Part shown: piece by piece, positions 589-46,488 of the stretch
Layout: every line of letters starts with the position of its first letter
Numbering within the stretch: position 1 is the stretch's first letter
Origin: a virus
Virus record (IMG/VR): IMGVR_UViG_3300027513_000025
Location: 1 to 46,926 of that record
Direction: 5' to 3' (one strand)
Length of the DNA stretch: 46,926 nt
Translations under genes and position numbers: made by a program
The notes under the pieces: model-generated
The model's database searches: none
What the model was told of the DNA's origin: nothing
Seen by the model: only the letters and a program-made list of their open reading frames with translations

Positions 589-843
589 GTGACTGTCCCA
601 CCGCACCGCGCCCAACTACTGGTCTGTCACCAGCAGATCGCGGTCGGCCATCAGGGGCCGCTGGAAAGCCGCGCCGATTGGGAGCACAGCCGCAAGCAGT
701 TCTGCGAGCTGGGTGCGTACGCGTGGTGCTTCGATGACGACATGTACGTGTGCGACATCCACCTGAACAGCCGCCACCGGGACCACGACCACTACGTCGA
801 GTTCCCTACGGTGCGACGTAGGGCTGCTGGGCCAGCTGGCTGA
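589..843 (+). CDS. Small Cys/His-rich protein, 84 aa
   Basis: This GTG-start gene follows the surface-protein gene by 9 bases. A GGAGG sits upstream, though at about 12 bases its spacing is long. The product has three cysteines (in LVCHQ, AWCFD and YVCDIH) and many histidines, which fits a small zinc-binding fold. I do not recognise a family. Its last 38 bases overlap, tail to tail, the end of the giant minus-strand gene. It is probably co-transcribed with the surface protein as a two-gene accessory unit. A competing TTG frame at 583 gives a less protein-like product. Confidence 0.55.
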   Translation: MTVPPHRAQLLVCHQQIAVGHQGPLESRADWEHSRKQFCELGAYAWCFDDDMYVCDIHLNSRHRDHDHYVEFPTVRRRAAGPAG

Positions 844-3800
844 AGGCCTCCTCCGGCTCGACCGCCTCGGGCGGCACGAATGGTGCGGCCTGCTGGCTGA
901 TCGGCACCCCGGTGTGACCGGCGTTCAGGATGTTGCTGATCTGGTTGCTGGCCTGCTGAAACACGGCATCGCCCAGCCCGAAGGCTTGGCTGATGCCAGC
1001 CGTGGCGGTGGTGGCCGCACTAGCCGGGCCGAAGGCGTAGTTGCCCATCTCCCTGACCGTCTCGCCGAAGGTTTCGAGGTTCTGTAGCGGAGCGTCCGGG
1101 TCACCTGAGGCCATCGCCTGCACATGCTCGGCATCCGCCTCGGCCACGCGGCGCGCCCACAGCGGGGCGTTGACCGGGATCTCCCACGGTAGGGCCGGGG
1201 TCAGCATGGCCAGCAGGTGGAAGAAGTCCTCGCGCTCCACCATCTCGCGCCGGAAGTCCTCGTCGTACTGCTGCTGCATCATCACCTGCCGGTAGATGTT
1301 GTTGGACAGCGCCAGCCCACCCAGCGGGGCCTCGATGCCGAACGGGGTGCGCACGAGGAAGCGGGTCAGCTCGGGCAGGATCTTGCCCCACATGTATGAC
1401 GCCGGGTACAGCCCGAGGTAGGGGTGGTTGATGGAGCGCTCCAGCGTGTTGCGCCCGCGTCGGTAGTAGTGCAGCGCGAAGGCGTTGTCCTCGGCAGCGC
1501 TGAACGCGTACTTGGCCGACTGGTACAGCGCCTCCTCCTGCAGGTTGTAGTGGGTGCCGATGTCGATGGATGAGCCGGGGCCGGTCTTGGGCAGCTCGGG
1601 CCGGGCCGGGATGGTCAGCTCGTCACCCAGCTTGCGCATGGCATCGCTGATCGGAGCGAGGCTGACCGATGCCGGAGGTGGCTTGCTGGGCATGGCCCGC
1701 CCCTCCTCCAGCGTCTTGGCCGCACGATCCGCCGCGTCCTGTGCCTTGGCCTGCTTGGCCGCTGCCTTGATGCGCGCCTCGCTGGCGGCCTTGGCCTTCT
1801 GTTCCAGATCGGTGAGCGGCGTACGACGCCGGGCACCGCGCATCTTGGCTCCCGTGTCGCTGGTCGCCTTGCGGGCACGCTTGAGTTCGCCCTTCAGGCG
1901 CTTGATCTCGGCTGAAGCGGCTTCAGCTGAAGCGCGGCGACGGGCCGCAGTGCGGCCAAGGTTGCCCGCACTACGGGTTCCAGCTGCCGCTTGCCGCCGG
2001 GCTTCAGCCTGCGCGGCTTCAGCTTCAGCCGTGCGTAGTGCGCCCTCGGCGTTCTTGGCCGCTTCCTCCAGCTGGGTCAGGCGGTCCATGGCCTCACCGT
2101 GGCGTGCCTCCAGCACATCGGCCTGTGTCCGTCGCCGGGCCCGGGTCAGCGCGGTGCGCTCATTGGCCTCGATCCGTTCAGCTGCACGGAGTTCGTTGTT
2201 GGCCTCGCGCAGCGGAGCCTTGGTGCGCTCTACCGCCCGGCGGCCCTTGGCAATCGCCTGATTGCGGGCCCGCTGGGTCTGGGCCGACAGGAAGCGCTGC
2301 TGTGCGGTCTTGTCCATCCGATTCCACTGGCGGCGCACGTACTCGAACGGGCCACGCAGCGGATGGCCAGCCTGCATGCTGCGCAGGTAGACCTCCATCT
2401 GGTCCGCGAACCACTCGCTCATGTCGGGGTGCCACACCCGCCGCTGGCTGCCAGTGGCCGCACGGAACTCGTTGATGATGACCTGCTTCTGGGACGGATC
2501 GAGCGTGGCCTCCAGCGCGTGGGTGATCTCGTGCAGACCGGTCTTGGCGTTGGTCTTCTGGGTAGCCAGCAGGATGCGGCGGGCGTCATCCATCATCACG
2601 TTGGCCCCCAGATAGGCACCGTCCTGCTCGTGGAACAGCATCGAGAACGACGGGTCTTGCGGGCTGCGGCGGCGGGTCAGGCCGATGCTCTGGTCGAGGT
2701 CATACGGTGAGCGCTTGGGCATGGACTCGATGCCCCGCGTGATCGACACGTGCGGGTCGAACGGGATGCCCTGATCACCGCGCACGTGGTCGAACTTGAG
2801 CCACTGCCACTGGCCACCCGGCAGCTGGGCCACGTCGTCGGCAGCCGCCTCGTAGCCCGCACCACGCAGGCGATCCACCTCGTGCTGGCGCAGCGGGCCG
2901 TCGAAGTAGTCCCACATCCGCTGGTAGTCGCCACCCCACTCCATGACCTTGCCGTTGGTGGCCGCCACGTGGCGCAGCACGTCCTCGTTGTCATACATCT
3001 CGCGCTTGGCGCTGTCGCTGATCAGGCCCAGCCGCGAGCGCATGTGGGCCAGCTTCTCGGGGCCCCACTCCATCTTGAGGTACTTGCCGCTGACGAGGCT
3101 GATGTTGCGAGCCTCGGGCGACGGAAAGGCCGACTTGCCACCGGCCAGCACCCGGTCCAGCTCGTCGTGCAGGCGGCGGGCGTAGCCACGGGACAGGCCA
3201 TCGGTCAGGCCCGGCGGGCCAAAGCCCTTCTTCCACTCGTTGATGGCCCACGCGTAGTCGGGGTCGTCCAGCATGTAGTCGAACTGGCTGGCATCGACGC
3301 CCTCGCCGGGTGGCACGTTCTCGTCCAGATAGCGCGCACGCTGGTAGCGCGGACGGCTGACGGTGGTGAAGCGGCGCGGCTTGATCTGTGCGGTCTTGAC
3401 CGTGAAGTTGCTGCTGCGAGCGTGCATCAGGTCGATCTGCTCCTGAATCTGCTCAGGCGTGAAGCGGTCGGCATAGCGCGGATCGAACATGCCTCCCGCC
3501 GGTGAGCCGATGTCCACCTCGGACGGGTCGATCCAGACCTCCACGAAGTTGGTGCTGTCGGGATCGGGCATGGCGGTGCTGAACCAGATGGCGTTGGGCT
3601 CGCCATACGTCTCGCCCTTGGCGTGCTTCACGTCCAGCCCGTTGCGCTGCACGGCGTCGATGTCGCGGGTGTAGTGGTACGCCCGGATCTTGCCGGGGCG
3701 GGCCTTGCTGCTGCCGGGCGGATCGGGCAGCGGGTAGCGTCCCAGCTCGCCGCGCTTGTGCGCCATGCTGACCGTGTAGCGCACGCCGTGGGTATCCAAG

Positions 3801-6800
3801 GCCGCACGGGTCATGCCCGCCGGGCTGACGGTCTGGCCCGCCAGCAGTGCGGTCTTCATGTCGATGCCGGGCAGCACGCTGGCCATGCGCATCACGTACT
3901 GGTCCATGCTCTCCCAGTCCTGCTGCTGCAGGAACAGCTGCACCTCCTCCGACTCGTCGGTCCACGGCCCCTCGGTCAGCCACTTGATGACCCGACCCCA
4001 CGTGCGGGAGGTGTTGCTGCCCCGGTAGCGCAGGTTCGGATTGGCGACCGCCACGAAGTCGGATAGCTCGGATTCAGCGTACATGCCGGTGGTGATGGTG
4101 GCGGTCGGGTAGGGAGTGACCGTCACGCTCAGGCTGCGGCTGGACTTGTTCAGCCCGTCAGCGCTGTCCAGCTGGGCCTGCAGGGTGCGAGCCACTTGCT
4201 CGCGCTGCTCGTCGCTGGTGGCCGCACGCATGCGCTCGTTGGCGTTGCGGGCGAAGTCATCGACGGCGGTGCGCTGCTCGGCGTCCAGCCAGCGCATGTG
4301 AGCGGTGTGCAGCGATGGCATGTAGCCACCCTCGTCCAGCTGGAAGGCCATGCCCAGCGCCGACTCGTCGCTCTTGTAGGCGGGCGGCAGCGTGTTGCGG
4401 ATGCGGATGGCGCGGTCGAACTCGTCGCCCATGCCACCGACCAGCATGCGCTGGCGGGCAAAGGCACCCTCGGTGGCCTCCAGCCCAGCATTGGCGGTGT
4501 GTGCCGCCCAGCCGAACATGTTGAAGCGGGCGTGGCTGCCGGAGATGTTCTTGGCCACGCTATCCCACACGCCGTGCATGAGGTCCAGCCACAGGTCAGG
4601 GTCAGAGCTGTACACCTGCGACGGGTTGGGGCGCTGGGACTTGTAGCCCTGCTTGTCCCACAGCGTCATGCGCCCCCGGTTCCTTACCCAGTCTCGCCCT
4701 CCGTAGAGGTGGAGGGTGGGACGCCCGGCGAGGGGCTGGGCGGCGTACTCGCCGGGGACTCGGAAGTCGGGGACGGACTGGCCGCTGGCACGGAGTTCGG
4801 CGATGCGGGCGTCGAAGGCGTCGGGCGCTTGGCGGCGGATGGCGTCGCCGAGGACGTTGGTGAACCTTTCGCCGAGCCCACGTTCCAGTTGCCCCGCCAC
4901 GTCTGGGGCGTACTGACGGATCTCCGCGAGGAGAGCTTGCCCACTCGGATCTGCCTCCCAGTCATGTGAGACGCGGGTGAAGTCCACCACGTCAGGATTG
5001 ACCTCGACACTGTAGTCGAACGCTGACAGATCAGCCGTCAGCAGTTCGGCCTCCAGCTCGTCGGTGTAGAAGTCATCCAGCACCACGCTGCCTTCGGTGC
5101 GGTCGATGTCGCGGATGAACTGGATGGCAGTGCGGCCATCAGTCCGTGTGACCACCATGCTGCCCTGTCCGCGCAGTGCGGGTGTGGCCTTGGAGATGGC
5201 CCGCTGCAACTCGCTGGCCTCGGCATCGGTCAGCGCCCGGTCGGCGGTGTAGTGCAGCGCCCAGCGCTCGCCGACCGCATGGTTAGCCACCGTGCGCCCG
5301 GCCTTGACCCGCGAGCCGTATACCTCGGCCTGCCGCAGCAGGTAGGTCAGCGAGGCGGCGTAGGCGCGCTCACCCTCGCGTGAGCCGAACACCTCGTGCA
5401 CGCTGTTGACGTTCTCGTAGAAGTCACCGGGTGGCGAGATCCAACCACCCTCCGCTCGCCGCACGTCGGCCACCCCCACGTGCAGGGCCGGAGCCAGCTC
5501 GGCACGCATGAAGTTCTCGACCGTATCCATCGCCACCCGCTTGCCGTCATCGGGCAGGTCGATCAGCCAGTCCAGATACTTGGTGTCGTACTCGAAGGCG
5601 GTGGTCTGCCCGGCCAGCGGGTGGACCTCGGGTGGCAGCGAGGCGAAGTGGGCCGGGTACTTCTGGGCCAGATGCACCGGCGGGTTGGCGGCGAAGGCAC
5701 GGTGCGCCTCGGCCAGCTCGACCGGATCGGTGGGCAGGTTGAAGTCGCGCACGGCCTGATACTCCCAGCCCAGCTGGTCGGCCACGCGCTGCACGCCGGA
5801 GGTGGTGGCGATGGAGTCGAAGCCCGCCAGCCAGTCCTCGTCGGGGTCACCGTAGTAGTAGTTGCTGGTGGCGCGCAGGTGGCGGTAGTCGGCGTTGGCC
5901 GCAGCGCGCCACTCGGTGTTGATCCAGCTGCGCACCTCGTTCCAGTACTCGTCGGCACTGTCCATGGTGGCCATCGCCTCGTCCAGCGACAGGCCGGTGG
6001 GCGGCACATCAGGCGGCACCTCGCCGATGATGTCCTCCAGCCCTTCACGGAAGCTGCCGCGTCCGAACAGGCCCTGCGGTGGCAGCAGGCGGTGGGTCAC
6101 GCCGGGAGCGGTGATCCACAGCTCGGCAGCGTCGTACTGGGCGGCAGTGCCCATGTCGGCGGGGGAGAACGGATTGAGGGATGGGTGGTTGTGGATCAGG
6201 ATGTGGTTGCCCTCGCGCAGCAACGGCAGGTGCGGGTTGATCTCGTCTCCCAAGCCCGCACCAGTCACCATGCCGTTGGGGTGCTGCAGCCAGCCCTCGT
6301 CCTGCAGGCCCTCGGCGAGGATGTTGCCGTCGCTGTCGATGATGGCGAAGTGCTCGCGGTCGGCGAAGCGGGTCTTCTTCCTGAAGTTGTCGATGGCGGC
6401 TGACACGCTGGTCGGCACGCCCTCGCTGGCATCGGCGGCCCGGTGCATGAACTGGAACACCTTGCGCTGGGTGGCGTCCAGTGCGGCCAGTGCCCGCTCG
6501 TCAATGCCCATCGGCACGTCGGCCATCAGGGTCGCCAGCAGCTCATGCTCGGGCTTGCCCATGGTGGCTGCCCGGGCGGTGAAGAAGGCACGGGCCGACT
6601 CGGTGGCCTTGGGGTCGCTCAGGCCCAGCGTGTCGGTGTAGTGCGCCCACCACTCCTCGGGGCTGTACGGCGAGCTGGCGGTGCTCCATGCCCGGTTGAC
6701 GTACTCGGGATGTGCGCCCTTCTCGATCATCCGGTTGCGGAAGATGTCCTGCGTCAGCTCGCCGGAGCGCACCCGCAGCTGCAGGTCGGCAACCGTATCG

Positions 6801-9800
6801 ACATCCTCGAACATGGTGACCACACCATCGAGGTCGATGGCCGCACGCTCGCCCAGATCGGGAGCCTTGAGCAGTTCGATGAAGTTGTCGTAGTTCTGCA
6901 GGTCCGGCCCAGCCAAGCCGCGACTGGCCTTCTCCAGCAGCCAGCGCACGCCGACCTCACCGGCATCGTCGGTCTTGTAGTGGGCCATCATCTTGGGCAT
7001 GAAGCTGGGGTCCACCTGTGCCCAGCTGTCAGTCAGGCGCTTGCCCAGCTCACGGCGCAGGGCACGCGCCGTGTTGACTTCCTTGACCCGCTTCACATTC
7101 AGGCGACCGCCCACCGACAGCATATTGCCCAGCTTGCCCAGCCGGGTGCTGGGGCCCATCAGCTTGCGACCGGCCTCGGCTCCCCACAGCGCACTGCGCC
7201 CGTACTCGATCTGGTCAGCTGGCGCGTACTTGGAGTCGCGGAACAGCATGTCGGCCAGATGCAGGGTCTGCTCGTCGTAGCTGAACTTCTCGCCGTTGAC
7301 CATCACCGTGTCAGGCTGGAAGCCGGGCTTCACGCCGCGCATGATGTTGAGGATGAAGGGCTCCATCAGCTCCTGCATCTGGAACAGCGGGTTGAGCGTG
7401 AAGCGCACCAGCGGGTAGATCTTCTCGGTCATCACCCCCAGCCAGTTTGTCTGGCCACCCATGCCCGACTTGAGCTTGCCGGTGAACTTCTGGGTGGCAC
7501 CCACGTGGCGGGTGCGGCCCTCGAAGGCGATGTTCAGGGCCTCGACCGCACCGCGATGGCCGATGGCGTCTTGTATGTCCTGCGGCAGCCCATGAGTGCG
7601 CACCAGATTCCAGATCTGCTCGCCGTCCAGACCGCGTGGCGTGACGTTGTTCTCACGCGAGAAGCGGATGACGCGGCTGAACAAGGCATTGGCGCGGTCC
7701 TGTGGGATGCCGTACTTACTGGACAGGTGCTGGGCCATGCGGATGCGAGCGTCGTTCATGATCCGCGTGCCACGCACCTCGTGGAACAGGAAGTCCTTGG
7801 CCACCGTGAAGCGGTTGTAGGGCTTGATGTCGGAGGCGGTGCCGATCAGCTCGGTCCATGCCGAGATGCCGACCACCTGCCCATCGGCTTCTGTGACCCT
7901 CCACATCTGCTCGGGACGCAGGGCGGGGCGGTAGCCGAGGTCAGAGTTGCGAGCCACCCAGTCGCCCAGCCCGGGGCCCAGCTTGGCGATCTGGGCATCG
8001 GTCAGCTCGGCGGGCAGCGCGTTGTTGTCGATCCAGTCAGTCAGCAGTGCGGTCACCTGCTGGCGCAGATCGGCGTCGCTCTGGTCGGCAGCCACGTTGC
8101 TGAACAGGTCGCCATAGCGTTCCACGTCTGCGCGCACTGCATCCATGTCGCCGTTGTCCAGCTTGTCGAGCACACCACGTGCGCCCTGCATGGTCAGCTG
8201 GCGGGGGCCAATCGGGGTCAGCCGCTCGGCATCGGGCAGTGCGCTCTTGATGGCCATGTCACGTGCGGCCAAGAACTCCTCGGTGGTGTGCCCGAAGTAG
8301 GCGGCGTCGATCAAGGCCGCACCATCCCGATCCAGCTTGGCACTCAGCTCGACTGCCTCGTCGGGACTGGCTCCCAGCAGCTCCAGCCGCTTGCGCGCCT
8401 CCTCGCGTGCCCGCACCAGCCCGCCCTCGGTGCGGTCCAGATACAGCGGCTTGACGCGCAGCGCCAGCTGCTCGATGTCGTCAGCCACGTCCTTGCCGCG
8501 CACGCCACGCTGGCCCGCCTCGATCAGCTCGTCAGGCGTGTGTGCGAAGTCAACCGTGCCGCGCCGCCGGATGTCGTCCACCAGCCCGTTGCGGAAGTAG
8601 GTGCGGGTCAGGTTGCTGACGTACACGCCCAGCCCACGCTGGGCACGCGCACCCGTCTCGTTGGGCAGCGCGTTGAGCGCATCACGGACCCCAACGAAGG
8701 TGTCCAGATCGTAGGCACGCAGCACACCCTCGGCGGTGTGCGAGCTGAAGATGGTGTCGGCCAGCTTGCCGGGTGCACCGACCCCGAACAGGCGCTGCGG
8801 ATCGTTGAGGGTGCGGATGGTGGCCATCACCGGTCGCAGTGCGGGCTCCCACGTCTGGTTCCACTTCTGGATGTAGCTGGCCGCATCCATGGCCTCGTTG
8901 AACTGCGAGGCGTACTTGCTCTGGCTGCCCACCTCACGCATGGCTTGGAACTGCAGCCCCGGATCGGCCTGCATGGCCGCACGCGCACGGTTGACATCAC
9001 CCAGCTGCGGCACCAACCGCACCGCCGCCTCGGCCATCTCCTGCTCGACTGCCGCCGGATCACCGAACAGCTGCAGGAACTTGGCGGAGCGCGCCATCTG
9101 CCCGGCCTTGAGCGACTTGCTGGCAAGGCCGCTGACCCCACCCAGAATCAGCCATGGGTCGGTGGCCAGTGACACGGCGATGTCGGCGAGGCCCTGCCCG
9201 GTGACCAGCCCTTCCTGATCGGGGTCGCCAGCGTCACGCAGCAGCTGGTTGCGGACCACGATCTCGTCCATCAGCTTGTCTCGCGTGGTGCGCGCACCGA
9301 TGGTGCCGAAGTCGCCACGCTCCAGCCGCTGCTGCAGCTCCTGATAGAAGGGGTTGCTGATCTCCTCGTCGGGACCGGCGCTGCGGGCGGCCTCCTCGAT
9401 GGCCTCGATGGACGGCAGTGCCGCGCCACCGAAGGCACGCATGATGGCCTGCTGTGGCTTGGCCAGCAGCACCTGCATGGCCAGTCCCAGCTGGTCGGTC
9501 AGCGCCACCGCTGGCCCCACGTCACCCATCAGGCCTGTCATACGCCCGGCCTGCACATCACGCGACCACTGGCTCTTGGCGGCGTGGCTGTACATCAGGA
9601 TGCCGTTGAGCGGGTTGTCGCGGGTGCTCTGGTTGTACTGCTCCATGATGTCGGGGTCGATGCCGCCCGGGCGCATGTGGACCGGCAGGCTGGACAGCAC
9701 CGCCAGCGGCAGGCCAGCCACGTTGCCGATGGCCTCCATCGGCAGATCCACCACGCTGCCCACGAAGCGGCCCAGTCCGGCGACCGCCTCGTTGCCGGTG

Positions 9801-10165
9801 AAACCGGCCACGCCGCCCAGCAGTCCCTCGAAGAAGCCAGCCTCCTCGAATGGCTGACGCGGCATGGATGGTGCGGCCAAGTTCATGGCGTCCGGTCGCC
9901 CCGGCCCGTGGGCCGGTGGCATCAGGTTGACCCCGAACTTGCCGATGTTCTGGTAGGCGCGGCCCTTGTCGAACTGGTAGATGTCCAGCGGCCCGGGCAC
10001 GATGGGCTTGGTGGGCACGCTGCTGGTGCCATACGGCACGCCCTGCGCCGGAGCACTGAACTGGCTCTGGCTCTGCTGCAGGAAGGGGGTCGGGAAGCGG
10101 ACCCGATACGGGTTGCCGCCACTGCCGCCCCGGCCCGGGAAGCGAGGACCGCCGTAGCCACCCAT
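806..10165 (-). CDS. Giant multidomain 'polyvalent' virion protein, 3119 aa (JAMM, ART-like, zincin, coiled coil)
   Basis: The largest gene, about one fifth of the genome. The N-terminus is Gly/Pro-rich, then glycine-rich hydrophobic stretches at about 110-170 and long helical regions. A JAMM/MPN metalloprotease motif lies at residues 1325-1328 (HNHP, followed by SPADM). An ADP-ribosyltransferase-like segment begins YHYT at 2163-2166, with NGL and then IWFS following. A zincin motif HEITH is at 2545-2549, with SEWFADQ downstream as a plausible third-ligand region. A charged Ala/Arg/Glu coiled coil spans about 2630-2770. The C-terminus has further hydrophobic segments. Large chains mixing these domains match the published class of polyvalent proteins, thought to enter the cell with phage DNA. 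Its place after the portal, where MuF-type proteins usually lie, fits a head-packaged ejected protein. The start overlaps the upstream stop (TGATG), implying translational coupling. N4-type virion RNA polymerase motifs were looked for and not seen. Confidence 0.9.
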   Translation of the reverse strand: MGGYGGPRFPGRGGSGGNPYRVRFPTPFLQQSQSQFSAPAQGVPYGTSSVPTKPIVPGPLDIYQFDKGRAYQNIGKFGVNLMPPAHGPGRPDAMNLAAPSMPRQPFEEAGFFEGLLGGVAGFTGNEAVAGLGRFVGSVVDLPMEAIGNVAGLPLAVLSSLPVHMRPGGIDPDIMEQYNQSTRDNPLNGILMYSHAAKSQWSRDVQAGRMTGLMGDVGPAVALTDQLGLAMQVLLAKPQQAIMRAFGGAALPSIEAIEEAARSAGPDEEISNPFYQELQQRLERGDFGTIGARTTRDKLMDEIVVRNQLLRDAGDPDQEGLVTGQGLADIAVSLATDPWLILGGVSGLASKSLKAGQMARSAKFLQLFGDPAAVEQEMAEAAVRLVPQLGDVNRARAAMQADPGLQFQAMREVGSQSKYASQFNEAMDAASYIQKWNQTWEPALRPVMATIRTLNDPQRLFGVGAPGKLADTIFSSHTAEGVLRAYDLDTFVGVRDALNALPNETGARAQRGLGVYVSNLTRTYFRNGLVDDIRRRGTVDFAHTPDELIEAGQRGVRGKDVADDIEQLALRVKPLYLDRTEGGLVRAREEARKRLELLGASPDEAVELSAKLDRDGAALIDAAYFGHTTEEFLAARDMAIKSALPDAERLTPIGPRQLTMQGARGVLDKLDNGDMDAVRADVERYGDLFSNVAADQSDADLRQQVTALLTDWIDNNALPAELTDAQIAKLGPGLGDWVARNSDLGYRPALRPEQMWRVTEADGQVVGISAWTELIGTASDIKPYNRFTVAKDFLFHEVRGTRIMNDARIRMAQHLSSKYGIPQDRANALFSRVIRFSRENNVTPRGLDGEQIWNLVRTHGLPQDIQDAIGHRGAVEALNIAFEGRTRHVGATQKFTGKLKSGMGGQTNWLGVMTEKIYPLVRFTLNPLFQMQELMEPFILNIMRGVKPGFQPDTVMVNGEKFSYDEQTLHLADMLFRDSKYAPADQIEYGRSALWGAEAGRKLMGPSTRLGKLGNMLSVGGRLNVKRVKEVNTARALRRELGKRLTDSWAQVDPSFMPKMMAHYKTDDAGEVGVRWLLEKASRGLAGPDLQNYDNFIELLKAPDLGERAAIDLDGVVTMFEDVDTVADLQLRVRSGELTQDIFRNRMIEKGAHPEYVNRAWSTASSPYSPEEWWAHYTDTLGLSDPKATESARAFFTARAATMGKPEHELLATLMADVPMGIDERALAALDATQRKVFQFMHRAADASEGVPTSVSAAIDNFRKKTRFADREHFAIIDSDGNILAEGLQDEGWLQHPNGMVTGAGLGDEINPHLPLLREGNHILIHNHPSLNPFSPADMGTAAQYDAAELWITAPGVTHRLLPPQGLFGRGSFREGLEDIIGEVPPDVPPTGLSLDEAMATMDSADEYWNEVRSWINTEWRAAANADYRHLRATSNYYYGDPDEDWLAGFDSIATTSGVQRVADQLGWEYQAVRDFNLPTDPVELAEAHRAFAANPPVHLAQKYPAHFASLPPEVHPLAGQTTAFEYDTKYLDWLIDLPDDGKRVAMDTVENFMRAELAPALHVGVADVRRAEGGWISPPGDFYENVNSVHEVFGSREGERAYAASLTYLLRQAEVYGSRVKAGRTVANHAVGERWALHYTADRALTDAEASELQRAISKATPALRGQGSMVVTRTDGRTAIQFIRDIDRTEGSVVLDDFYTDELEAELLTADLSAFDYSVEVNPDVVDFTRVSHDWEADPSGQALLAEIRQYAPDVAGQLERGLGERFTNVLGDAIRRQAPDAFDARIAELRASGQSVPDFRVPGEYAAQPLAGRPTLHLYGGRDWVRNRGRMTLWDKQGYKSQRPNPSQVYSSDPDLWLDLMHGVWDSVAKNISGSHARFNMFGWAAHTANAGLEATEGAFARQRMLVGGMGDEFDRAIRIRNTLPPAYKSDESALGMAFQLDEGGYMPSLHTAHMRWLDAEQRTAVDDFARNANERMRAATSDEQREQVARTLQAQLDSADGLNKSSRSLSVTVTPYPTATITTGMYAESELSDFVAVANPNLRYRGSNTSRTWGRVIKWLTEGPWTDESEEVQLFLQQQDWESMDQYVMRMASVLPGIDMKTALLAGQTVSPAGMTRAALDTHGVRYTVSMAHKRGELGRYPLPDPPGSSKARPGKIRAYHYTRDIDAVQRNGLDVKHAKGETYGEPNAIWFSTAMPDPDSTNFVEVWIDPSEVDIGSPAGGMFDPRYADRFTPEQIQEQIDLMHARSSNFTVKTAQIKPRRFTTVSRPRYQRARYLDENVPPGEGVDASQFDYMLDDPDYAWAINEWKKGFGPPGLTDGLSRGYARRLHDELDRVLAGGKSAFPSPEARNISLVSGKYLKMEWGPEKLAHMRSRLGLISDSAKREMYDNEDVLRHVAATNGKVMEWGGDYQRMWDYFDGPLRQHEVDRLRGAGYEAAADDVAQLPGGQWQWLKFDHVRGDQGIPFDPHVSITRGIESMPKRSPYDLDQSIGLTRRRSPQDPSFSMLFHEQDGAYLGANVMMDDARRILLATQKTNAKTGLHEITHALEATLDPSQKQVIINEFRAATGSQRRVWHPDMSEWFADQMEVYLRSMQAGHPLRGPFEYVRRQWNRMDKTAQQRFLSAQTQRARNQAIAKGRRAVERTKAPLREANNELRAAERIEANERTALTRARRRTQADVLEARHGEAMDRLTQLEEAAKNAEGALRTAEAEAAQAEARRQAAAGTRSAGNLGRTAARRRASAEAASAEIKRLKGELKRARKATSDTGAKMRGARRRTPLTDLEQKAKAASEARIKAAAKQAKAQDAADRAAKTLEEGRAMPSKPPPASVSLAPISDAMRKLGDELTIPARPELPKTGPGSSIDIGTHYNLQEEALYQSAKYAFSAAEDNAFALHYYRRGRNTLERSINHPYLGLYPASYMWGKILPELTRFLVRTPFGIEAPLGGLALSNNIYRQVMMQQQYDEDFRREMVEREDFFHLLAMLTPALPWEIPVNAPLWARRVAEADAEHVQAMASGDPDAPLQNLETFGETVREMGNYAFGPASAATTATAGISQAFGLGDAVFQQASNQISNILNAGHTGVPISQQAAPFVPPEAVEPEEAFSQLAQQPYVAP

Positions 10166-13158
10166 CAGCGCAGGGTGTAGCTGGTGCCGGTGCCCCGCCG
10201 CGTCTTGAGCTTGGGCGCGGTGGTCGGCGAGGTCAGGCGACGCGTCTCCTCGTCACGCTCGTCCTCGTCAATCGGGCGCGGCGCGGTGGGCACCAAGCGC
10301 GGCGCGATGGGCGCACGAGCTGCGGTGCGTGGTGCGGACAACGCCGGGCGTGCGACGGGCGGCGCGTACTGGGCCGGGGTGAGCGGCAGGTTGACGTTGA
10401 CCGGCGAGCGCGGGCCGGGTGCCGCTGCCGGGCCGGGCAGTGCGGTCTTGGGCGGCTTGCTGGTGGTGGTGCGGGCCTGCTGTGCGGCCTGCATGGCTCG
10501 GAACTGGGGCGACATGTAGGCGCTCAGGTCGCCGAAGGTGGGCAGCTTCATCTCCGGCTGGCGAATGGTCGGTGCGTTCAGTGCGCCCATGTCCAGTCGG
10601 CTGCGCGTGTTCTCCAGCATGACCTGCTTGCGGCTGGCCTCCCAGTCGGCAACCTGACGCTCGGTGCGCGGCGTCACACCTTCCTCGATGGTGCTGGCGG
10701 TTGGCTTGAACAGCTGCTCGAAACGACCGTTGGTGCGGCCAGCCAGCTCGGGATCGGGGCCCATGCGCTGCTTGGCGTTCTCCAGCTGGATGATGCCGTA
10801 CTCCCGATTGGCCAGCCCGACGCCGGTATCACGCATCAGTCGCCAGTCGGCCCACGCCGCAGCGGCAGCCTCCTCGTCGCCCTGATACTGGATCTGCAGC
10901 CACTTGGCCATCTGCTGGTCGGGCGTGTTCAGCAGCTCGCGCAGGCCAGCCATGTCGCTGTAGTAGTAGGCCTCCGCACCCTGACCGAAGCGCTCGCTGT
11001 GGAACAGGTTGTCATCGACCGCCGCCGGATCGACGGCTGGCCCGGTCATGCTGGCAGGCACCACCCGCTCCGCGCCCGTCTGGCCGGGCAGGCCACCACG
11101 CTGGCTGGACACCGGCACGCCACGCAGCCGCTCCGCCAGCCCGCCACGTCCGACCCGGGACTGGGTTGGCAGGATGTCGGTCTGCAGGCCGCGCTGCTCG
11201 GCACGTGCGCCGTATGGCCCGAAGGGCTGATCGACCGGTCCACCGATGTCGCCCAGCACGTTGCCCACCGCACCCGCCACGTCACCCACCAGCTCGAAAC
11301 CGGGCGACAGCCCAGCCAAGCGGCGGCGGCCACGCTCGGCAGCATGCTGGCGCGCTCGCTCCAGCACTGCCTCACGGTCATCATCGACGCTGGGGCCCGC
11401 CTGCTGGGCGGCGGCGCGGCGCTCCAGTGCGGCCCCGGTGAAGCCACCGAAGATGCCGCGCATGCCGGTCGGCACGGTGATGATCTCGCTGTTGGGGTTG
11501 AACGGCGCGTTGGGATCGGAGCCAGCCGCCAGCGGCACGGTCATGGTGATGGCACCCGTGTTCTGGTCGGTGCGGCGTTGGCTGGCAGGCACGTTGAACG
11601 GGTCGCGGGTGAAGAAGTCCATGCTGGTGCCGTTGTTGGTGGCCCAGTACTGCTTGCCGTTGACGGTGTAGGTCACACCGATCTGCTGCGGCTGGCCAGT
11701 GCTGATGCTGCCGGGCGAGCCCTGTGCCTGATCGGCCACCGTCTGCTCGGCGTAGATGGGCGTGAAGTTGACGTAGGTGTACTGCCCGCGCTGACCCTTC
11801 ACGCCGGTGGGCATGACCACCATCATGCCGCTGCTCTTGTCGGGCAGGCGCGGGTCGTTGCTGGCCACGATGTCGAACACTTCGTTGCGCAGTGAATCGT
11901 TGGACAGGGCGAGGAAGGCGCGCCCGGCGTTGATCTCGTCAATCATGAAGTTGGCGGCTTCGTAGCTCTGGCCGACCAGCAGCGCATCACTGGGCTGGCC
12001 CTCACCGCCGTACTCCTGCAGCGAACGCCCCGCACCCAGCACCGTCGGATCGCGCCCGATCATGCGCTCGTTATTGACGAAGCCCTTGGTTTCGTCGCTG
12101 ACATTGGGGTTGGCGGCCAGCTGGTCCAGATAGCCGAAGTAGTCGTCCAGCTTGGACTTCATGGCGAACGGGTTGGTGTACGAGCGGCCATCCTCGGTCA
12201 CCGCGCCCAGCATGGGGTCGATGATGTCGTGGCGCATGGTCTGGTAGGCGGCGATCTCGTCAATGTCGCCCCAGCGCGCACGGGAGGTGACCTGATCGGC
12301 GATGTCGTCCTCCAGATCGCTGGCCATGCCCTTCTCACCTGCCGCACGCGCCAGATTGAGGCGACCGCGCAGGCCGTCCAGCTTGGAGTCACCCAGCTGG
12401 ATGTAGGAGCCGTAGGTCAGGCCACCCAGCCCCTCCTCGGCCAGATAGGCCTTGATGTCGGCGAAGTTGGGATCGGTGTTGATCTGGTCGAACAGGTTGA
12501 GGGTGCGGGCGTGGTCGGCCTGCGCACCGCCGCGCAGGTCGTTGAAGTCCTCGCCGCTCTCGCTGATGGTCGGATCGAGGATGCCCGCCCGGATGGCAGC
12601 CGCCGTCAGCGCATCGGTGGCGATGTCGTACTGGCGCTCGTTGCGGTCATACACCGCCTGCAGGTCGGCATCGCTGACCCCGCTGCCACCGCCGCCTCGG
12701 CCACCGCCGCCTCCGCCACCACCACCGCCAGCGCGCTGCTTGGCGGCGTCGATGAACTGGGCGGCGCTGCGCATCAGGTTGCGGTAGGCCTCGGAGTTGA
12801 CCGGCAGCTTCTTGGCCCACTTGGTGTAGAAGGTCGCCATCTGCGTCTCGTTGACCTTGTGCTGGGCATAGCTCAGGGTCATCTTGGATTCCTCGATGGC
12901 GAAGCCGTACTCGTCCAGCCGGATGTCCCACTCCTCCCACAGCGGGTCATCCTTGCTGATCGCGTCACGCCGCTGGCGCATGTGCTTGAGCAGGATCTGG
13001 TCGGTGACCGGCTTGCCCTCGAACTCGCCGCCCTCCTCCCACGCCTTGATGATGTTGGCGTCCTGCTGGCTGTTGTACTCCTGCGCCATCGACACGATGA
13101 CGCTGGTGAGGTCAGGCGCAGCGCGTGGCAGACGACCGAAGCGCCCGGAGCGAGCCAC
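10165..13158 (-). CDS. Large virion protein, 997 aa, function unknown
   Basis: This protein lies between the portal and the giant polyvalent protein and overlaps both by one base (TAGTG at its GTG start, TGATG at its end), so the three are probably made in fixed proportion. The first 135 residues look helical. A nearly pure glycine linker follows at about 143-160, then a long mixed region, then a Pro/Ala-rich, basic C-terminal tail after about residue 880. No catalytic motif is evident. Its position and size suggest an internal or ejected virion protein working with the giant protein. A tape-measure role cannot be excluded but is not favoured, because it is separated from the tail genes and lacks long coiled coil. 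Confidence 0.85.
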   Translation of the reverse strand: MARSGRFGRLPRAAPDLTSVIVSMAQEYNSQQDANIIKAWEEGGEFEGKPVTDQILLKHMRQRRDAISKDDPLWEEWDIRLDEYGFAIEESKMTLSYAQHKVNETQMATFYTKWAKKLPVNSEAYRNLMRSAAQFIDAAKQRAGGGGGGGGGGRGGGGSGVSDADLQAVYDRNERQYDIATDALTAAAIRAGILDPTISESGEDFNDLRGGAQADHARTLNLFDQINTDPNFADIKAYLAEEGLGGLTYGSYIQLGDSKLDGLRGRLNLARAAGEKGMASDLEDDIADQVTSRARWGDIDEIAAYQTMRHDIIDPMLGAVTEDGRSYTNPFAMKSKLDDYFGYLDQLAANPNVSDETKGFVNNERMIGRDPTVLGAGRSLQEYGGEGQPSDALLVGQSYEAANFMIDEINAGRAFLALSNDSLRNEVFDIVASNDPRLPDKSSGMMVVMPTGVKGQRGQYTYVNFTPIYAEQTVADQAQGSPGSISTGQPQQIGVTYTVNGKQYWATNNGTSMDFFTRDPFNVPASQRRTDQNTGAITMTVPLAAGSDPNAPFNPNSEIITVPTGMRGIFGGFTGAALERRAAAQQAGPSVDDDREAVLERARQHAAERGRRRLAGLSPGFELVGDVAGAVGNVLGDIGGPVDQPFGPYGARAEQRGLQTDILPTQSRVGRGGLAERLRGVPVSSQRGGLPGQTGAERVVPASMTGPAVDPAAVDDNLFHSERFGQGAEAYYYSDMAGLRELLNTPDQQMAKWLQIQYQGDEEAAAAAWADWRLMRDTGVGLANREYGIIQLENAKQRMGPDPELAGRTNGRFEQLFKPTASTIEEGVTPRTERQVADWEASRKQVMLENTRSRLDMGALNAPTIRQPEMKLPTFGDLSAYMSPQFRAMQAAQQARTTTSKPPKTALPGPAAAPGPRSPVNVNLPLTPAQYAPPVARPALSAPRTAARAPIAPRLVPTAPRPIDEDERDEETRRLTSPTTAPKLKTRRGTGTSYTLR

Positions 13159-15092
13159 TAGCCGCCGCCTGCGATCTGGGTCTTCTGCACCAGACGCGAC
13201 TGCGGCTCACCCTCGATGGTCATGGTCTGCGCTTCCAGATCAGGCTGCATCAGCTCGGTGCCCGGCGGTGGCGCATTGGCAGGCAGCCCCTCGGGCGGGG
13301 TGATGGGCTGCTCCTCCGGCGCGTTCAGGGACGGCACGCCCTGCCCACCACCCAGCATGCCCCGGAAGTCGGCGAGGCTCTGGGCCTGCTGGCCCAGCTG
13401 CTCGGCAGCGCCCGGCGGCTGGCCGTAGCCCAGCGACTGCAGCACCGTCATCAGCTGGGCCATGACCTGCACGCTCTCGGGGAACATGGCCGCGTCGGTG
13501 CGCTCATCGCGGATGGTGTCGGACTCCGACTCGGGATCATCGACGCCCACCCGATCCATGCCGCGCTTCTGGCTCCACAGCTTGGAGTTGACGAGGTTGG
13601 TGGCCATCGCCGAAGTCTCCATGTCGTCACGCGGGGTCAGCGATGGTGCGGTCTGCTGCAGGCGGGCCAGCCCCTCCAGCATGGGAGCCAGCTCGGGAAC
13701 CTTCTTGGCCCACACGTGCGCGGCCAGCTCCCACACCTCGCGCCGCCACTTGTAGAACAGATCGCGCTTGATGCGGATGCGAGCCTCGTAGTTGGCCACC
13801 AGTGCGGTGATGGCCTTGCTGCTGGACAGCACGGTGGCCGGGGCCAGACCGCGCAGCAGATCGTTCAGGCCGGACACGTCAGCCAGCTCACGGTCGATGC
13901 GCGACAAATAAGCCTCCAGCTGGAACTCGGGCATCCACGGCTCGATCTTCTCGACCCGGTTGCCCGCACCGGGGGCGATGACCTTGTTGGCCTTGGGGAT
14001 CACGCCGGACGGCACGGTGTCGGGAGCTTCCGGTCCCACCAGCTGCCAGAACTGGCCGTCGATGGTGCGGGCAAGCATCTGTGCGCCCTCGCTCAGGCGC
14101 TCGTCCTTCTCCCGCAGCAGCGGCTCGATGTCGAACAGCTCAGGTCGGCCATTGGGCACGCCGGGCACGTAGGTGTTGAACAGCACCCGGTACGGCAGCT
14201 GGCCCTCGTACTCGGCGTGCTGGGTGTTCTTGACCATCACGTTGCCGACGAAGATGGCGTTCCACGTCTCCATCACCACGCCGACGTACGACTTGCGCTT
14301 GGGCTGCTTGGCCTTGGGCACCCGATACCAGTAGTCGTACACCTCGACCTCAAGGTTCTGCCAGTCGAGGTTGGGGCGGGCACTGGTGGTCATCGACGCG
14401 TAGCCCATGGGCTGCACGTACGGGATCAGCTTGCCGTCAGCATCCTCGGCAGCCTCGACGTACAGGCCCCACTCCTCCAGCACCTGCTCGCCTGACTGGC
14501 GGTAGGTGTACAGCGCCCAGTTGAGCTTGGTGTAGTCGGAGCTGCCCCAGCCGAGGTACAGGTTGCGAGGCTGGTCCACCACCGTCACGCACGGGCGGGC
14601 CTTCTCCTCGTCCCAGTACACCTTGGCCGCAGTGCGCCCATACAGGCCCTTGGTGATGCAGGCCTGATGGCATTTGAGGTCGTAGTCCTCCTCGTCCTTC
14701 CACGCGAAGTACATGCGCTCCACCAGCGAGGCCAGCAGCCGGGTCTGCTCGTCGGGCAGGTTGGCCACCATGTTCTCGACCGGCGGCACCGACTGCAGGC
14801 TGGCGGGCACGTCCACGTACACCGGCGGCACGTTGAGGCTGACGTGCGACCTGCCCGGGGTGACCGCACTGGGATGCCACGCCCAGTGGCTGGCACCGGC
14901 ATGCGCCAGCACATCGTCGGGGTAGTACAGGTTGTCCCAGCGATCACACAGCTGCGCGAAGTGGTCCTGCTCGGGCTGCACCGAATACTTGCGGTCGGCA
15001 ATCTCGCGCAGCAGCGCCTGCTCCTCCTCGGACGAGCCCAGCTCACGGCTGTAGGCCACTGCCCGTCCTACATCGAGGATCGCCACCGTCAC
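13158..15092 (-). CDS. Portal protein, 644 aa
   Basis: This gene forms the dodecameric channel through which DNA enters and leaves the capsid. The call rests on its position directly after the large terminase, its usual portal length, and a portal-like body: an aromatic-rich N-terminal half, a long central helix (about 390-480, including the ELADVSGLNDLLRG stretch), and a Gln/Pro-rich, flexible C-terminus. It starts with GTG five bases after the terminase stop. Its TAG overlaps the GTG of the next gene. It resembles portals of short-tailed phages more than HK97-type portals, but I cannot name the family from the sequence alone. Confidence 0.85.
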   Translation of the reverse strand: MTVAILDVGRAVAYSRELGSSEEEQALLREIADRKYSVQPEQDHFAQLCDRWDNLYYPDDVLAHAGASHWAWHPSAVTPGRSHVSLNVPPVYVDVPASLQSVPPVENMVANLPDEQTRLLASLVERMYFAWKDEEDYDLKCHQACITKGLYGRTAAKVYWDEEKARPCVTVVDQPRNLYLGWGSSDYTKLNWALYTYRQSGEQVLEEWGLYVEAAEDADGKLIPYVQPMGYASMTTSARPNLDWQNLEVEVYDYWYRVPKAKQPKRKSYVGVVMETWNAIFVGNVMVKNTQHAEYEGQLPYRVLFNTYVPGVPNGRPELFDIEPLLREKDERLSEGAQMLARTIDGQFWQLVGPEAPDTVPSGVIPKANKVIAPGAGNRVEKIEPWMPEFQLEAYLSRIDRELADVSGLNDLLRGLAPATVLSSSKAITALVANYEARIRIKRDLFYKWRREVWELAAHVWAKKVPELAPMLEGLARLQQTAPSLTPRDDMETSAMATNLVNSKLWSQKRGMDRVGVDDPESESDTIRDERTDAAMFPESVQVMAQLMTVLQSLGYGQPPGAAEQLGQQAQSLADFRGMLGGGQGVPSLNAPEEQPITPPEGLPANAPPPGTELMQPDLEAQTMTIEGEPQSRLVQKTQIAGGG

Positions 15093-15096
15093 GTGT

Positions 15097-16686
15097 TCAC
15101 TCTCGCTCGGTCAGGTTCAGGCGTCCCACCGTCACACGGCGCTGGCCGAAGTGCTGCAAGGGTACTCCTGCTTGTCGAACCGGCTCGACCGTTCCGGCGT
15201 AGAAGTCGAAGGTGGTGTCGTCAGCCACCTTGCTCGGCTGGCGCATGACCTCGTGCCACGCCACCGCCAAGGCCATCACCGCGTCCGTCTGGATCTTGCG
15301 GTCGTTGAGCTTGTAGCCCAGCAGCTGGCGGCGCAGGGCCAGCCAGATGCCGTGGCGCGGCAGGCGCATGCGGCCCTTCTCGATGCCAGCCTTGAGGTCC
15401 AGCAGCAGGCGCAGCTTCTTGGAGCGCGCCCCGCCGAACTCGACCGCCCGCATGGGGTGCAGCCCGTTGAGCAGGTCGTAGAACACCTTGCCGCCGAAGC
15501 CAGTGGCGTCGATGGCGGTGTAGCACATGGCGCGCTGGGTGGTGAAGGTGCGGTGGCCCTCAGCCACCAGTGCCGACACGCTCAAGGTGGTCTGGCGACC
15601 GGTCTTGCGGCGGGCGCGAACGCCGATGATCTGCTCGGGGTTGGTCATGTCCAGCGTCACCGCCCACGTGGAATCGAAGGTCAGGGCGGGGTCCACGCCC
15701 TGCGCGTAGCGGTGGCCGTCCTGCGGCATGTCGTCCTCGGGCAGCGCCTTGGTGAACATGGCGTCCACCGACTGTGCGCCGAAGAAGGCCGACTTGGCCT
15801 CGATGGCGTAGCCGTCGATGTTCTGCGGGATCAGGTACGGCGGCATGCCCTGCAGCAGGCGTCCGAAGGTCACCTCGTCCAGCCCGTAGCCCACGTTGTC
15901 GCGGGTCGAGATGCGCAGCGACATGGCCTCCGGTGAGCGATCCGGCGCGGACGGATCGCCGAGGTTCCAACGGTCGGTGAAGGCGGTCAGGCCCTCGGTG
16001 CTGGTGCTGATCAGGATGAGCTGGCCACCCGATCCGAGGCGGCGGTTGTGCAGCACCTCGTCTACCACGAAGTCAAAATCTGAGCTGAAGGCGCACTCGT
16101 CCCAGCTGATGCCGTTCATCTCCTTGCCCAGCGAGCCCAGCGCCCGCTCACTGGTGGAGCGGAAGTGGATCTGGCCACCGCCCAGTGCCGGATGCAGCTG
16201 CACCCACGGGTAGTCGCCGCGCTCCTTGGTGGTGGTGTTGGCCACCTCGGGGCCCAGCGCCTCGGCCAGCAGGCAGCCGCGCCCCTTCTGGGCGGGGTGG
16301 GTGCCAGACAGGATGCGGGTCAGCTCCAGATGCACCAGCTCGGCCACCTCGCCCTGCAGCCCGAAGTGCCACCAGTCGTAGGGCGTCTTGAGCCACGCCA
16401 TCAGCGAGCGGTCCTTGTCGCCCAGCGGTGCGGGCAGACCCAGCTTGAACAGGGTCGAGTGCAGGATGTAGACGGCCAGCCCCAGCGTCTTGCCCGCACG
16501 GTTGCCCGCACTGACCGCGATGGTCAGGTAGGCGGCGCGCCAGCCATCCTCCAGCCGCATGAGGCCGGTGTTCCAGAAGCGCTGCTGGCCGGGGTGGCCT
16601 TGGATGCCCAGAAAGCGGAGCGCGAAGTAGTCGATGTCCCAGCGGGCGCGCTGCAGCGCAACCCGGAAGTCGTCGTCATCGACCAC
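15097..16686 (-). CDS. terL: Terminase large subunit, 529 aa
   Basis: ATP-driven DNA packaging motor and nuclease. The Walker A motif GNRAGKT is at residues 61-67. The Walker B motif ISWDECAF has D196 and E197 as the acidic pair, and the coupling motif LISTSTEG lies shortly downstream. The C-terminal half has an RNase H-like nuclease layout with acidic residues in GVDPALTFD and AIDATGFGG. The length is typical of the family. It starts with GTG inside the last codons of the small subunit gene (11-base overlap), the classic arrangement of packaging genes. All motifs needed for activity appear intact. Confidence 0.95.
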   Translation of the reverse strand: MVDDDDFRVALQRARWDIDYFALRFLGIQGHPGQQRFWNTGLMRLEDGWRAAYLTIAVSAGNRAGKTLGLAVYILHSTLFKLGLPAPLGDKDRSLMAWLKTPYDWWHFGLQGEVAELVHLELTRILSGTHPAQKGRGCLLAEALGPEVANTTTKERGDYPWVQLHPALGGGQIHFRSTSERALGSLGKEMNGISWDECAFSSDFDFVVDEVLHNRRLGSGGQLILISTSTEGLTAFTDRWNLGDPSAPDRSPEAMSLRISTRDNVGYGLDEVTFGRLLQGMPPYLIPQNIDGYAIEAKSAFFGAQSVDAMFTKALPEDDMPQDGHRYAQGVDPALTFDSTWAVTLDMTNPEQIIGVRARRKTGRQTTLSVSALVAEGHRTFTTQRAMCYTAIDATGFGGKVFYDLLNGLHPMRAVEFGGARSKKLRLLLDLKAGIEKGRMRLPRHGIWLALRRQLLGYKLNDRKIQTDAVMALAVAWHEVMRQPSKVADDTTFDFYAGTVEPVRQAGVPLQHFGQRRVTVGRLNLTERE

Positions 16687-21551: not shown

Positions 21552-23711
21552 ATGACCGCACAGGGACCAAGCGCCGACTCGACGCTCGACAGGACGCACG
21601 CGCCTGCCGTGATCGAGGCGGTGGACAACATCTGGTTCGGCTGGGACCACGACGACAGCACCACCGTCGAGGCCACTGAGGCCGCACTACGCCAGACCAG
21701 CAGCATCGTGAACGCCCTGACCGGCGGGCACGCCTACAGCGTCGGGCTGGCCACTGGTGGCACCGCCTACACCGACTTCGACAACCGCGTGGTGAAGGTC
21801 ACCGGCGCAGCGCTGCGCGACCTTCGACTGAGCATGGCAGAGCGGCTGGGCGTGACCAGCGCGCTGGCAGTGCATGAGGCTGGGCATGCCCGCCTCAGCG
21901 GTGCCATCAGCCGTGCGATCCAGAAGCACTACGGCGTGCGGCCTATGGCTGACCGCGTGCTGGCCCAGCGCTTCTCGAACCTGATCGAGGACGTGCGGCT
22001 GGAAGCCCGCACTGTCGAGACGTTCCCGGCCTTCGCTGGCCTGTTCGACCTCGCACTGTGGTGGGTGGCCCAGCGCTACCCGGCTGGCAGCATCACCCGG
22101 CTGCCGGGTTCGCGTGACGAGGCCTTCTCGCTGGCGCTGGCTGCCAACCGCTACGACCTGCACACCACGTGGGCTGCGGACGCAGCGCTGCAGGCAGAGC
22201 GCACGTGGTGGCAGGATTGGGCCAAGCGTGCCACCAGCGGCAAGGCCAGCGACAAGAGCCCGCACCATCTGGCAGCCGTGGCTGAGGCGCTGGATCGCAT
22301 CAGCGGCCTGCCGGTCGAGGCTCCGGTGGTGCAGCCGGGAACGCAGCCGCAGCCCAGCGAGGGCGACGGTGACGGTGAGGCTGGCGACGAGGGCGACGAC
22401 GAGTACGATCCTGACGCCCCGGCCACCATCGACGAGGCTGGCGACGAGGCGCAGCGTGCCGACGAGCAGGGCGACCAGCGCGACGAGCAGGGCGAGGCTG
22501 ACGGCAGCGCTGAGGGCGAGGCTGACGGCAGCGCTGAGGCTGAGGGTGAGGGCAGCGAGGCCAGCCCTGACGCCAAGCCGGAAGGGCCTGCAGGCAAGCC
22601 CAGCGAGGGTGCCAGCCAGAACCCTGACACGCTCAAGGGTGCCGACCGCCCGACCGAAACCAACAGCGTCGAGGCTGAGACTGACCGCGACGCGCTGGCA
22701 GAGCCGCTGCCCGCACACGTCACCGATGCGCTGACCCACGACGAGCGCACCACCGACGCGGCCATGGCCAGCCAGATTGCCCGCACGCGTGCTGCACGTG
22801 GCGGCATGAGCGAGAACCGGGTCGAGCGCCTGACGGTGACCCATCCTGACGGCAGCACCGCCACGGTCGATATCACCGACCGCGTGCCGACCACCCCCAG
22901 CGCTGATGGTGCGGCCTTCATGGCCTTCGCCAGTGGCACCGATCCTGACAACGACGGCCTGAACCTGCGGCCCTCGTACAGCGCACGGCCTGAGGTCGCG
23001 GTGGATATGGGCGCTGCGGCCATGGTGCGGGCTGCCTTCGTCCAGACCCGCACCCACCGCACCAACCGCAGCATCGCGGCCAGCGGCTCACGCCTGCTGG
23101 ATCGCAAGGTGGCAGCCACCGCGTGGGGTGACCCGCAGGTGTTCGTGCGCCGTGGTGCGCCCAGCCCTGATCAACTCAACGTGCACCTGCTGATCGACGC
23201 GTCGGGCAGCATGCACGGGGCCAACATGACAAAGGCCATCCGCATCGGGGCCACGCTGGTCGAGGGCCTGCGCCGCATCCCCGGCACCCGCGTGACGGTG
23301 TGGTCGCACAACACGGCCAGCGGTGCTGACGCCAGCGTCAACCTGCGGCTGGACACCCGGCGCGGGGACAGCGTGGCCAAACTGGCCAGCATCGGTGCCG
23401 GTGGTGCCAACCGCGACGGCACCGCCATTGCCGCACTGACACAGGGCCGCATCATTCCCGGCACTGAGGCCCGGGAGCGGGCGCTGCTCATCGTCATCAG
23501 CGACGGTGCGCCGTGCGAGAGCGAGTCCTACGTGGCCGGTGCGGTCAACACCGCACGCAAGGCTGGCGTCGGGGTCATCAGCGTGGCTATCGACAACGGC
23601 CTGACCGAAACGCAGCAGCAGTGCTACGGACGCGAGAACGTGGTCGAGTGGAAGGGCAACTGGATGCTGGCCACGCGGACCATGGCCCAGATCATGGGGC
23701 GGCTGGCCTGA
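21552..23711 (+). CDS. VWA-domain protein with HEAGH zincin motif (CobT-like), 719 aa
   Basis: Partner of the upstream AAA+ ATPase. The C-terminal von Willebrand A domain has a MIDAS motif DASGS (D549, S551, S553) and continues to the end. The N-terminal third has a metalloprotease-like HEAGH at 108-112, with E146 in NLIEDVRLEA as a plausible third zinc ligand. The middle (about 260-375) is a highly acidic, Asp/Glu/Gly/Ala low-complexity linker, with DGSAEGEADGSAEAEGEG as its core repeat. This order matches CobT-type proteins in outline, but an intact HEXXH suggests proteolysis or metal-dependent remodelling. Start chosen at the ATG after AGGAGACACCG. Substrate unknown; host protein remodelling during takeover is one possibility. 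Confidence 0.9.
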   Translation: MTAQGPSADSTLDRTHAPAVIEAVDNIWFGWDHDDSTTVEATEAALRQTSSIVNALTGGHAYSVGLATGGTAYTDFDNRVVKVTGAALRDLRLSMAERLGVTSALAVHEAGHARLSGAISRAIQKHYGVRPMADRVLAQRFSNLIEDVRLEARTVETFPAFAGLFDLALWWVAQRYPAGSITRLPGSRDEAFSLALAANRYDLHTTWAADAALQAERTWWQDWAKRATSGKASDKSPHHLAAVAEALDRISGLPVEAPVVQPGTQPQPSEGDGDGEAGDEGDDEYDPDAPATIDEAGDEAQRADEQGDQRDEQGEADGSAEGEADGSAEAEGEGSEASPDAKPEGPAGKPSEGASQNPDTLKGADRPTETNSVEAETDRDALAEPLPAHVTDALTHDERTTDAAMASQIARTRAARGGMSENRVERLTVTHPDGSTATVDITDRVPTTPSADGAAFMAFASGTDPDNDGLNLRPSYSARPEVAVDMGAAAMVRAAFVQTRTHRTNRSIAASGSRLLDRKVAATAWGDPQVFVRRGAPSPDQLNVHLLIDASGSMHGANMTKAIRIGATLVEGLRRIPGTRVTVWSHNTASGADASVNLRLDTRRGDSVAKLASIGAGGANRDGTAIAALTQGRIIPGTEARERALLIVISDGAPCESESYVAGAVNTARKAGVGVISVAIDNGLTETQQQCYGRENVVEWKGNWMLATRTMAQIMGRLA

Positions 23712-33451: not shown

Positions 33452-33705
33452 GCATCACCGACCAGATCCCCGAGCTGACCGAGGACAGCAAGCACTGCCC
33501 GATGTGCGGCCAAGCACTGGAGGCAACGTGGGACGAACACACCGAGTCACTGGAACTGACCGCACCCGGCATCCAGCGTGAACTGGCACGTGCACTGGAG
33601 CGCACCTGCACCGAGATGGGTTGGGCCATCCGCACCCAGAAGGGCGTGACCTTCGATCACGTGGCGTCTGCGTTGCTGGTGAGGCTCACGTCCGGCACAG
33701 GCTGA
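33448..33705 (+). CDS. Small zinc-knuckle protein, 85 aa
   Basis: CPMCGQALEATWDEH gives a CxxC near the N-terminus, and a helical C-terminal half (IQRELARALERTCTEMGW) follows. Sandwiched between primase and helicase with ATGA and TGATG overlaps, it is probably an accessory factor of the replication module. Family not recognised. Confidence 0.65.
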   Translation: MSITDQIPELTEDSKHCPMCGQALEATWDEHTESLELTAPGIQRELARALERTCTEMGWAIRTQKGVTFDHVASALLVRLTSGTG

Positions 33706-46401: not shown

Positions 46402-46488
46402 CGATGACTCCTGTTCTATTGGGCGCACCATAGCACGCCGCACAAGTACACTCGTGCGATCTACGCCACCACACCACGGAGGGAATCC

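Follow-up and report, generated by a model that had tools for sequence, protein, structure and literature searches.

The DNA analysed here (the window, 46,926 bases, the whole of one virus record) gives 19.9% of its length to a single gene, an uninterrupted open reading frame (ORF) of 3119 codons at 806-10165 on the minus strand. The encoded giant protein consists of a helical N-terminal core (the N-core, approximately residues 53-1244), a variable payload that usually includes a zincin, and a conserved C-terminal domain (residues 2858-3010), an overall plan that is common to about 60 relatives. The giant is probably a polyvalent protein that is packaged in the virion and accompanies the DNA, in a phage that has no recognisable tape-measure gene and is probably short-tailed. 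We favour this reading because of the fixed order of the genes for the portal, a partner protein (P2) and the giant, with their one-base overlaps, the conserved ends around a variable middle, the conserved zincin, the swapping of payload, a cassette common to MuF polyvalent proteins, the polyvalent-protein association of the viral protein whose predicted fold comes closest to the N-core model, and the precedent of N4 gp50. That the giant is virion-associated and ejected is likely. An earlier note on this DNA had described one chain of 3119 residues amounting to a fifth of the genome, which the ORF bears out; the main organising feature of the protein, a conserved N-core and C-terminal domain with variable payload between them, was absent from it.

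Genomic setting and relatives

The late genes that place the giant in its genome are the following:

15097-16686, minus strand: large terminase, 529 residues (PHROG terminase, E 2e-10)
13158-15092, minus strand: portal protein, 644 residues (PHROG portal, E 1e-10)
10165-13158, minus strand: partner protein P2, 997 residues (conserved N-terminal part, then Gly-/Pro-rich sequence)
806-10165, minus strand: giant polyvalent protein, 3119 residues (about 60 relatives with the same ends)
44760-45761, minus strand: major capsid protein (MCP), 333 residues (PHROG major head protein, E 5e-48)

The giant and P2 ORFs overlap by one base, as do those of P2 and the portal. The two ends of the record (1-150 and 46777-46926) overlap by about 150 bases in a near-identical, inexact repeat, which suggests that the genome is complete, about 46.8 kb long and either circular or circularly permuted, and contig L034, nearly identical to the window record, crosses the junction. 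Since the record closes into a circle in this way, the MCP gene lies downstream of the giant gene across the junction, and the minus-strand late genes can be read in the order terminase, portal, P2, giant, junction, a 211-residue protein (45808-46443), MCP, SU10-type adaptor and tail genes. The giant had been placed between portal and scaffold in the earlier note; its position between portal and MCP stands by way of the circle, but the scaffold does not, as the 211-residue protein matches no family.

A search with the portal retrieved 33 viral contigs, and a search with the C-terminal domain of the giant added 80 more, taken as the best of 195 matching viral-contig stretches. Terminase, portal, partner and giant form a fixed block in these uncultured viral contigs, and profiles made from the relatives recover the order portal, partner of 750-1115 residues and giant of 1433-3618 residues in every contig that spans the block. 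Among 50,697 named phage records, tblastn found no match to the giant, portal or terminase of the window, and searches with the relatives gave only a partial portal match, at 25% identity, in two Gordonia phages. Direct searches of Pfam, PHROG, NCBIfam and the PDB with the window giant were likewise without a match. Three genome bins also contain the portal; their labels, Anaeromyxobacter, Salinibacterium and Myxococcales, give no secure host assignment because stray viral contigs can sit in bins.

Two other explanations of the giant can be weighed against this gene order. As a large, helical protein present once per genome, it might be the tape-measure protein of a long tail, furnished with enzymatic insertions, and tape measures do occur among the lower-ranked viral fold matches of the N-core model. 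The gene, however, lies between portal and MCP rather than between tail-tube and distal tail genes, and the length of its product ranges from 1433 to 3618 residues through inserted cassettes; on position and length variation a tape-measure identity was rejected. In addition, a 206-residue late gene matches the SU10 adaptor, and the late proteins tested included none recognisable as a tail-tube protein, all of which makes a tape measure highly improbable. Alternatively, the enzyme domains would be equally sensible in a multidomain effector that is made in the infected cell and never packaged, with its gene merely situated among structural genes. The portal-to-MCP position is nevertheless fixed across a diverse family, and the conserved ends point to a constraint independent of the enzymes, so that a non-packaged effector seems a poor prospect.

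Other regions of the window hold genes of more familiar types. An M23 peptidase (E 3e-25; 35845-36768, minus strand), probably the lysin, is encoded downstream of the tail genes. Two large tail proteins of 813 and 1075 residues with Rha78A-type immunoglobulin and fibronectin domains (37491-43159, minus strand) are likely to function in host recognition. On the plus strand are the replication and recombination genes, encoding Rad52-like (29407-30429), AEP-type primase-like (32534-33451, a weak match) and RecA-type AAA_25 ATPase (33621-35003) proteins, as well as a 719-residue CobT-like protein (21552-23711) with a VWA domain (E 3e-10) and a zincin-like HEAGH motif near residue 108, possibly a second metallopeptidase of the same phage.

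The conserved ends

The two regions that recur at the ends of the relatives are located as follows:

6434-10009, minus strand: conserved helical N-terminal core, residues 53-1244 (kept in 20 giants of the first set)
1136-1594, minus strand: conserved C-terminal domain, residues 2858-3010, ERSINHPYLGLYPASYMWGK (alignment A3)

Matches to the N-core profile add dozens more relatives beyond the first set of 20 giants. Between the conserved ends the relatives vary, with 122-1900 residues, and minimal relatives are made up of core and C-terminal domain with a payload of just 120-250 residues. Since the minimal relatives keep both ends around so short a payload, the ends should have a function of their own. 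The conserved N-core and C-terminal domain had no earlier recognition in the libraries searched, and the giant represents a new protein family.

A structural model of the N-core (residues 301 onward) is almost all helix, with a mean pLDDT of 73. When the model was compared with viral predictions, the top-ranked fold was that of a "large polyvalent protein associated domain" protein (E 1.5e-10, with a low TM-score). A PDB fold search returned only generic helical matches, none significant, and comparison with known ejection proteins gave no match in sequence or PDB fold. Matches of the model to minor capsid proteins in BFVD were set aside, since their TM-scores are low and the search output does not say which region aligns.

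A helical N-core and the retention of both ends in minimal relatives would also suit a structural protein of the inner core or ejection channel, in which the ends build a portal core and an envelope conduit, as T7 gp15/gp16 or N4 gp51 do, and the enzymes mostly aid passage through the envelope instead of serving as host effectors. Yet the payloads of relatives, with DNA methylase, ParB, GNAT and ART domains, are directed at nucleic acids, NAD and proteins rather than wall or membrane, and the giant contains no strong hydrophobic or transmembrane segment; an inner-core role of this kind is therefore improbable. The "hydrophobic stretches" listed in the earlier note reduce to one marginal 19-residue window (residues 329-347, Kyte-Doolittle 1.41).

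In some relatives the gene is interrupted. L003 and L042 are one circular record with a 144-base overlap, in which the gene is split immediately behind the JAMM domain (L003:19149; L042:1-3945) into two overlapping reading frames of different phase, one of 1518 and the other of about 1368 codons, possibly by fission, programmed frameshifting or an indel or sequencing error. In L009 (14948-15009) an in-frame TAG occurs just after the N-core, and beyond it the payload can be read on in that frame without a further stop; fission of the gene, readthrough or recoding, and sequencing error are all possible.

Zincin, JAMM and the mobile payload

The middle of the giant is exchangeable payload, which in the window comprises these segments:

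5966-6388, minus strand: JAMM domain, residues 1260-1400, with E1271, H1325, H1327, S1334 and D1337 (invariant active-site residues)
3743-5797, minus strand: payload partly common to close relatives, residues 1457-2141 (comparison with relatives)
3200-3742, minus strand: ART-like mobile cassette, residues 2142-2322 (inserted by comparison with L041; L100, L069, L120 and L121 have homologues)
2306-2668, minus strand: zincin metallopeptidase, residues 2500-2620, HExxH at 2545-2549, third ligand E2584 (conservation and model)
1646-2278, minus strand: coiled-coil-type charged segment, residues 2630-2840 (sequence, long helix ending the model, relatives L040-L042)

The HEITH sequence at residue 2545 is weak by itself, occurring in 6.7% of composition shuffles. 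The zincin is accepted because HExxH is conserved together with E2584: H2545, E2546, H2549 and E2584 are each conserved in 90% or more of 43 payload regions. The model (pLDDT about 72-94) shows three successive strands, then the helix that bears HExxH and, further on, a helix containing E2584, and the same order of elements has been described for zincins of polyvalent proteins (PMC5512222); a PDB fold search with the modelled segment gave no zincin match. In six relatives (L009, L012, L075, L077, L080 and L082) a long helical insert seemingly parts the two halves of the zincin, at a site where variable inserts are described for the zincin family of polyvalent proteins (PMC5512222). HExxH is present in the payload of all 31 giants whose payload is at least 500 residues, and about 23-25 relatives are without a zincin, the 25 giants that lack HExxH there having payloads of at most 470 residues; L100, also lacking HExxH, has extra sequence, but within the N-core. 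Strong as this pattern is, it represents few independent events, since only about four changes are needed on the tree of the C-terminal domain.

The JAMM motif HNHPSLNPFSPAD spans residues 1325-1337, and the complete active-site signature of JAMM/MPN+ proteins, E...HxHPx(n)SxxD with all catalytic residues, is found in the window giant and four close relatives. All five proteins with the domain have the same E, H, H, P, S and D, and such a motif turns up in only 0.15% of composition shuffles. The spacing from the second H to the S is six residues, in contrast to the seven of RadC-type JAMM domains. In profile and fold searches, a weak Prok-JAB Pfam match in the relative L043 (E 0.012) is below the cut-off, the window giant has no Pfam match to the JAB family, and the model contains alpha/beta elements at moderate confidence with no JAMM match in a PDB fold search. 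The JAMM segment alone, used as a query, found no relative in viral contigs.

The ART-like cassette is mobile. Closest relatives are without it, and in the nearest, L041, the flanking sequences meet within about 5 residues (2230/2235). Homologues are present in two distant giants, L069 and L100, and in two MuF-containing head proteins of other phages (L120 and L121). In L100 (3158-10711) it belongs to about 765 extra residues that lie inside the N-core and not after it. Invariant residues include YHYT and Y.EPN (the conserved Y of a YGEPN motif); the third ART catalytic position was not identified among the conserved residues. Foldseek against the PDB ranks Tpt1/KptA (tRNA 2'-phosphotransferases) 1-6 and PARPs lower, and Tpt1/KptA and PARPs all belong to the ART superfamily. 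The segment is called ART-like and not ART because these matches have E values of 0.38 or worse; Pfam gave no ART match. Residues from about 2630 to 2840 are charged, of low complexity and one long helix as far as modelled. Payloads of other relatives include ADPrib_exo_Tox (L053, E 4e-9; L063, E 2e-7) and GNAT (L056) domains, all above cut-off, a C5 DNA methylase (E 5e-36), ParB_N (E 3e-13) and matches to Alt-like ART profiles.

The earlier note had read JAMM, ART-like, zincin and coiled-coil segments in the chain. For JAMM and zincin the active-site residues hold up, as does the coiled coil as a charged, helical segment; of the ART-like claim, the mobile cassette is supported and the ART fold weakly supported. 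The suggested novelty of the domain order stands to the extent that no other protein seen has JAMM, ART and zincin in this order, but the ART-like cassette in it is simply inserted, and the closest relatives do without it.

Comparison with known proteins and a proposed mechanism

Polyvalent proteins (Iyer et al. 2017, PMC5512222) join unrelated catalytic domains in one chain near virion genes, often with a zincin, and with ART and JAB-type domains and a mosaic payload. The giant is alike in combining unrelated catalytic or binding domains (JAMM, zincin and the ART-like cassette) and in being encoded among virion packaging genes, in conserved order between portal/P2 and MCP; it differs in matching no Pfam, PHROG or NCBIfam model. 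A polyvalent and probably packaged protein, as described earlier, is well supported by the conserved block, the exchangeable enzymes and the cassette common to MuF head proteins, but the MuF framing that accompanied it fails, and MuF identity was rejected, because Phage_Mu_F (PF04233) matches neither the giant, its aligned relatives nor P2. L120 and L121 do match PF04233. Like the giant, these head proteins combine the ART-like cassette, at 42-43% identity, with further effector domains, whereas they have a MuF domain and 2H phosphoesterase and are without its N-core, zincin and C-terminal domain. Both (L120:2437-6144, L121:2401-5217) have a PFIN-like region, and the phosphoesterase resembles anti-CBASS Acb1.

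The closest parallel in layout is N4 gp50 and its Schitoviridae relatives: about 3500 residues, a large N-terminal helical region, an enzymatic middle, a zincin and a C-terminal region, with neighbouring genes for other ejection proteins. In N4 gp50 the N-terminal region serves injection and the C-terminal region is required for encapsidation (PMC5512222; PMC12633501), and the protein is reportedly packaged uncut (PMC5512222). The giant differs in having no RNA polymerase domain and in swapping payload between relatives, and no sequence or PDB-fold similarity was found; roles are read across by analogy. An N4-type virion RNA polymerase was rejected as its identity, as no polymerase profile matched either the window protein or its relatives. 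The cultured Microbacterium podoviruses Akoni and Burro, which have no tape measure, also encode a very large protein beside the portal gene (gp31 and gp27, >4400 residues), suggested to be processed and virion-associated (PMC8281081, PMC7302621). Their gene is upstream of the portal and ours downstream. In these two proteins, excepting the first 672 residues of Akoni gp31, which were left out, neither HExxH nor a JAMM motif occurs, and the profiles of the N-core, the C-terminal domain and the zincin do not match. Membership of their family was rejected, no sequence homology between the giants having been detected in this comparison.

For a packaged polyvalent protein, the following course may be proposed. 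The N-core would work with P2 at the portal and lead the chain through the tail, and the C-terminal domain would secure encapsidation. The zincin may cut the chain, either while it is still in the head or once it has entered the cell, to free payload enzymes, whose targets early in infection would be the defences or the metabolism of the host. A processing role for the zincin has somewhat less than an even chance; some other role is less likely, and a host-targeting protease a little less likely again. Counted against the packaged polyvalent reading are the 23-25 zincin-less relatives, the approximately four tree changes, the uncut N4 gp50, the low TM-scores and the want of sequence or PDB-fold matches between N-core and known ejection proteins. 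More tentatively, the family may represent a widespread uncultured phage lineage in which a conserved injectable chassis is a cartridge for exchanged enzyme cassettes that the zincin releases; the chassis would then be a novel delivery family with no relation to N4, T7 or MuF proteins.

The family provides a natural series in which an apparent delivery chassis occurs bare or loaded, with its payload swapped or its gene split, and it makes testable both the delivery of very large phage proteins and the role of zincins in polyvalent proteins. A chassis that tolerates the exchange of large cassettes would explain how phages gather counter-defence activities in one injected chain.
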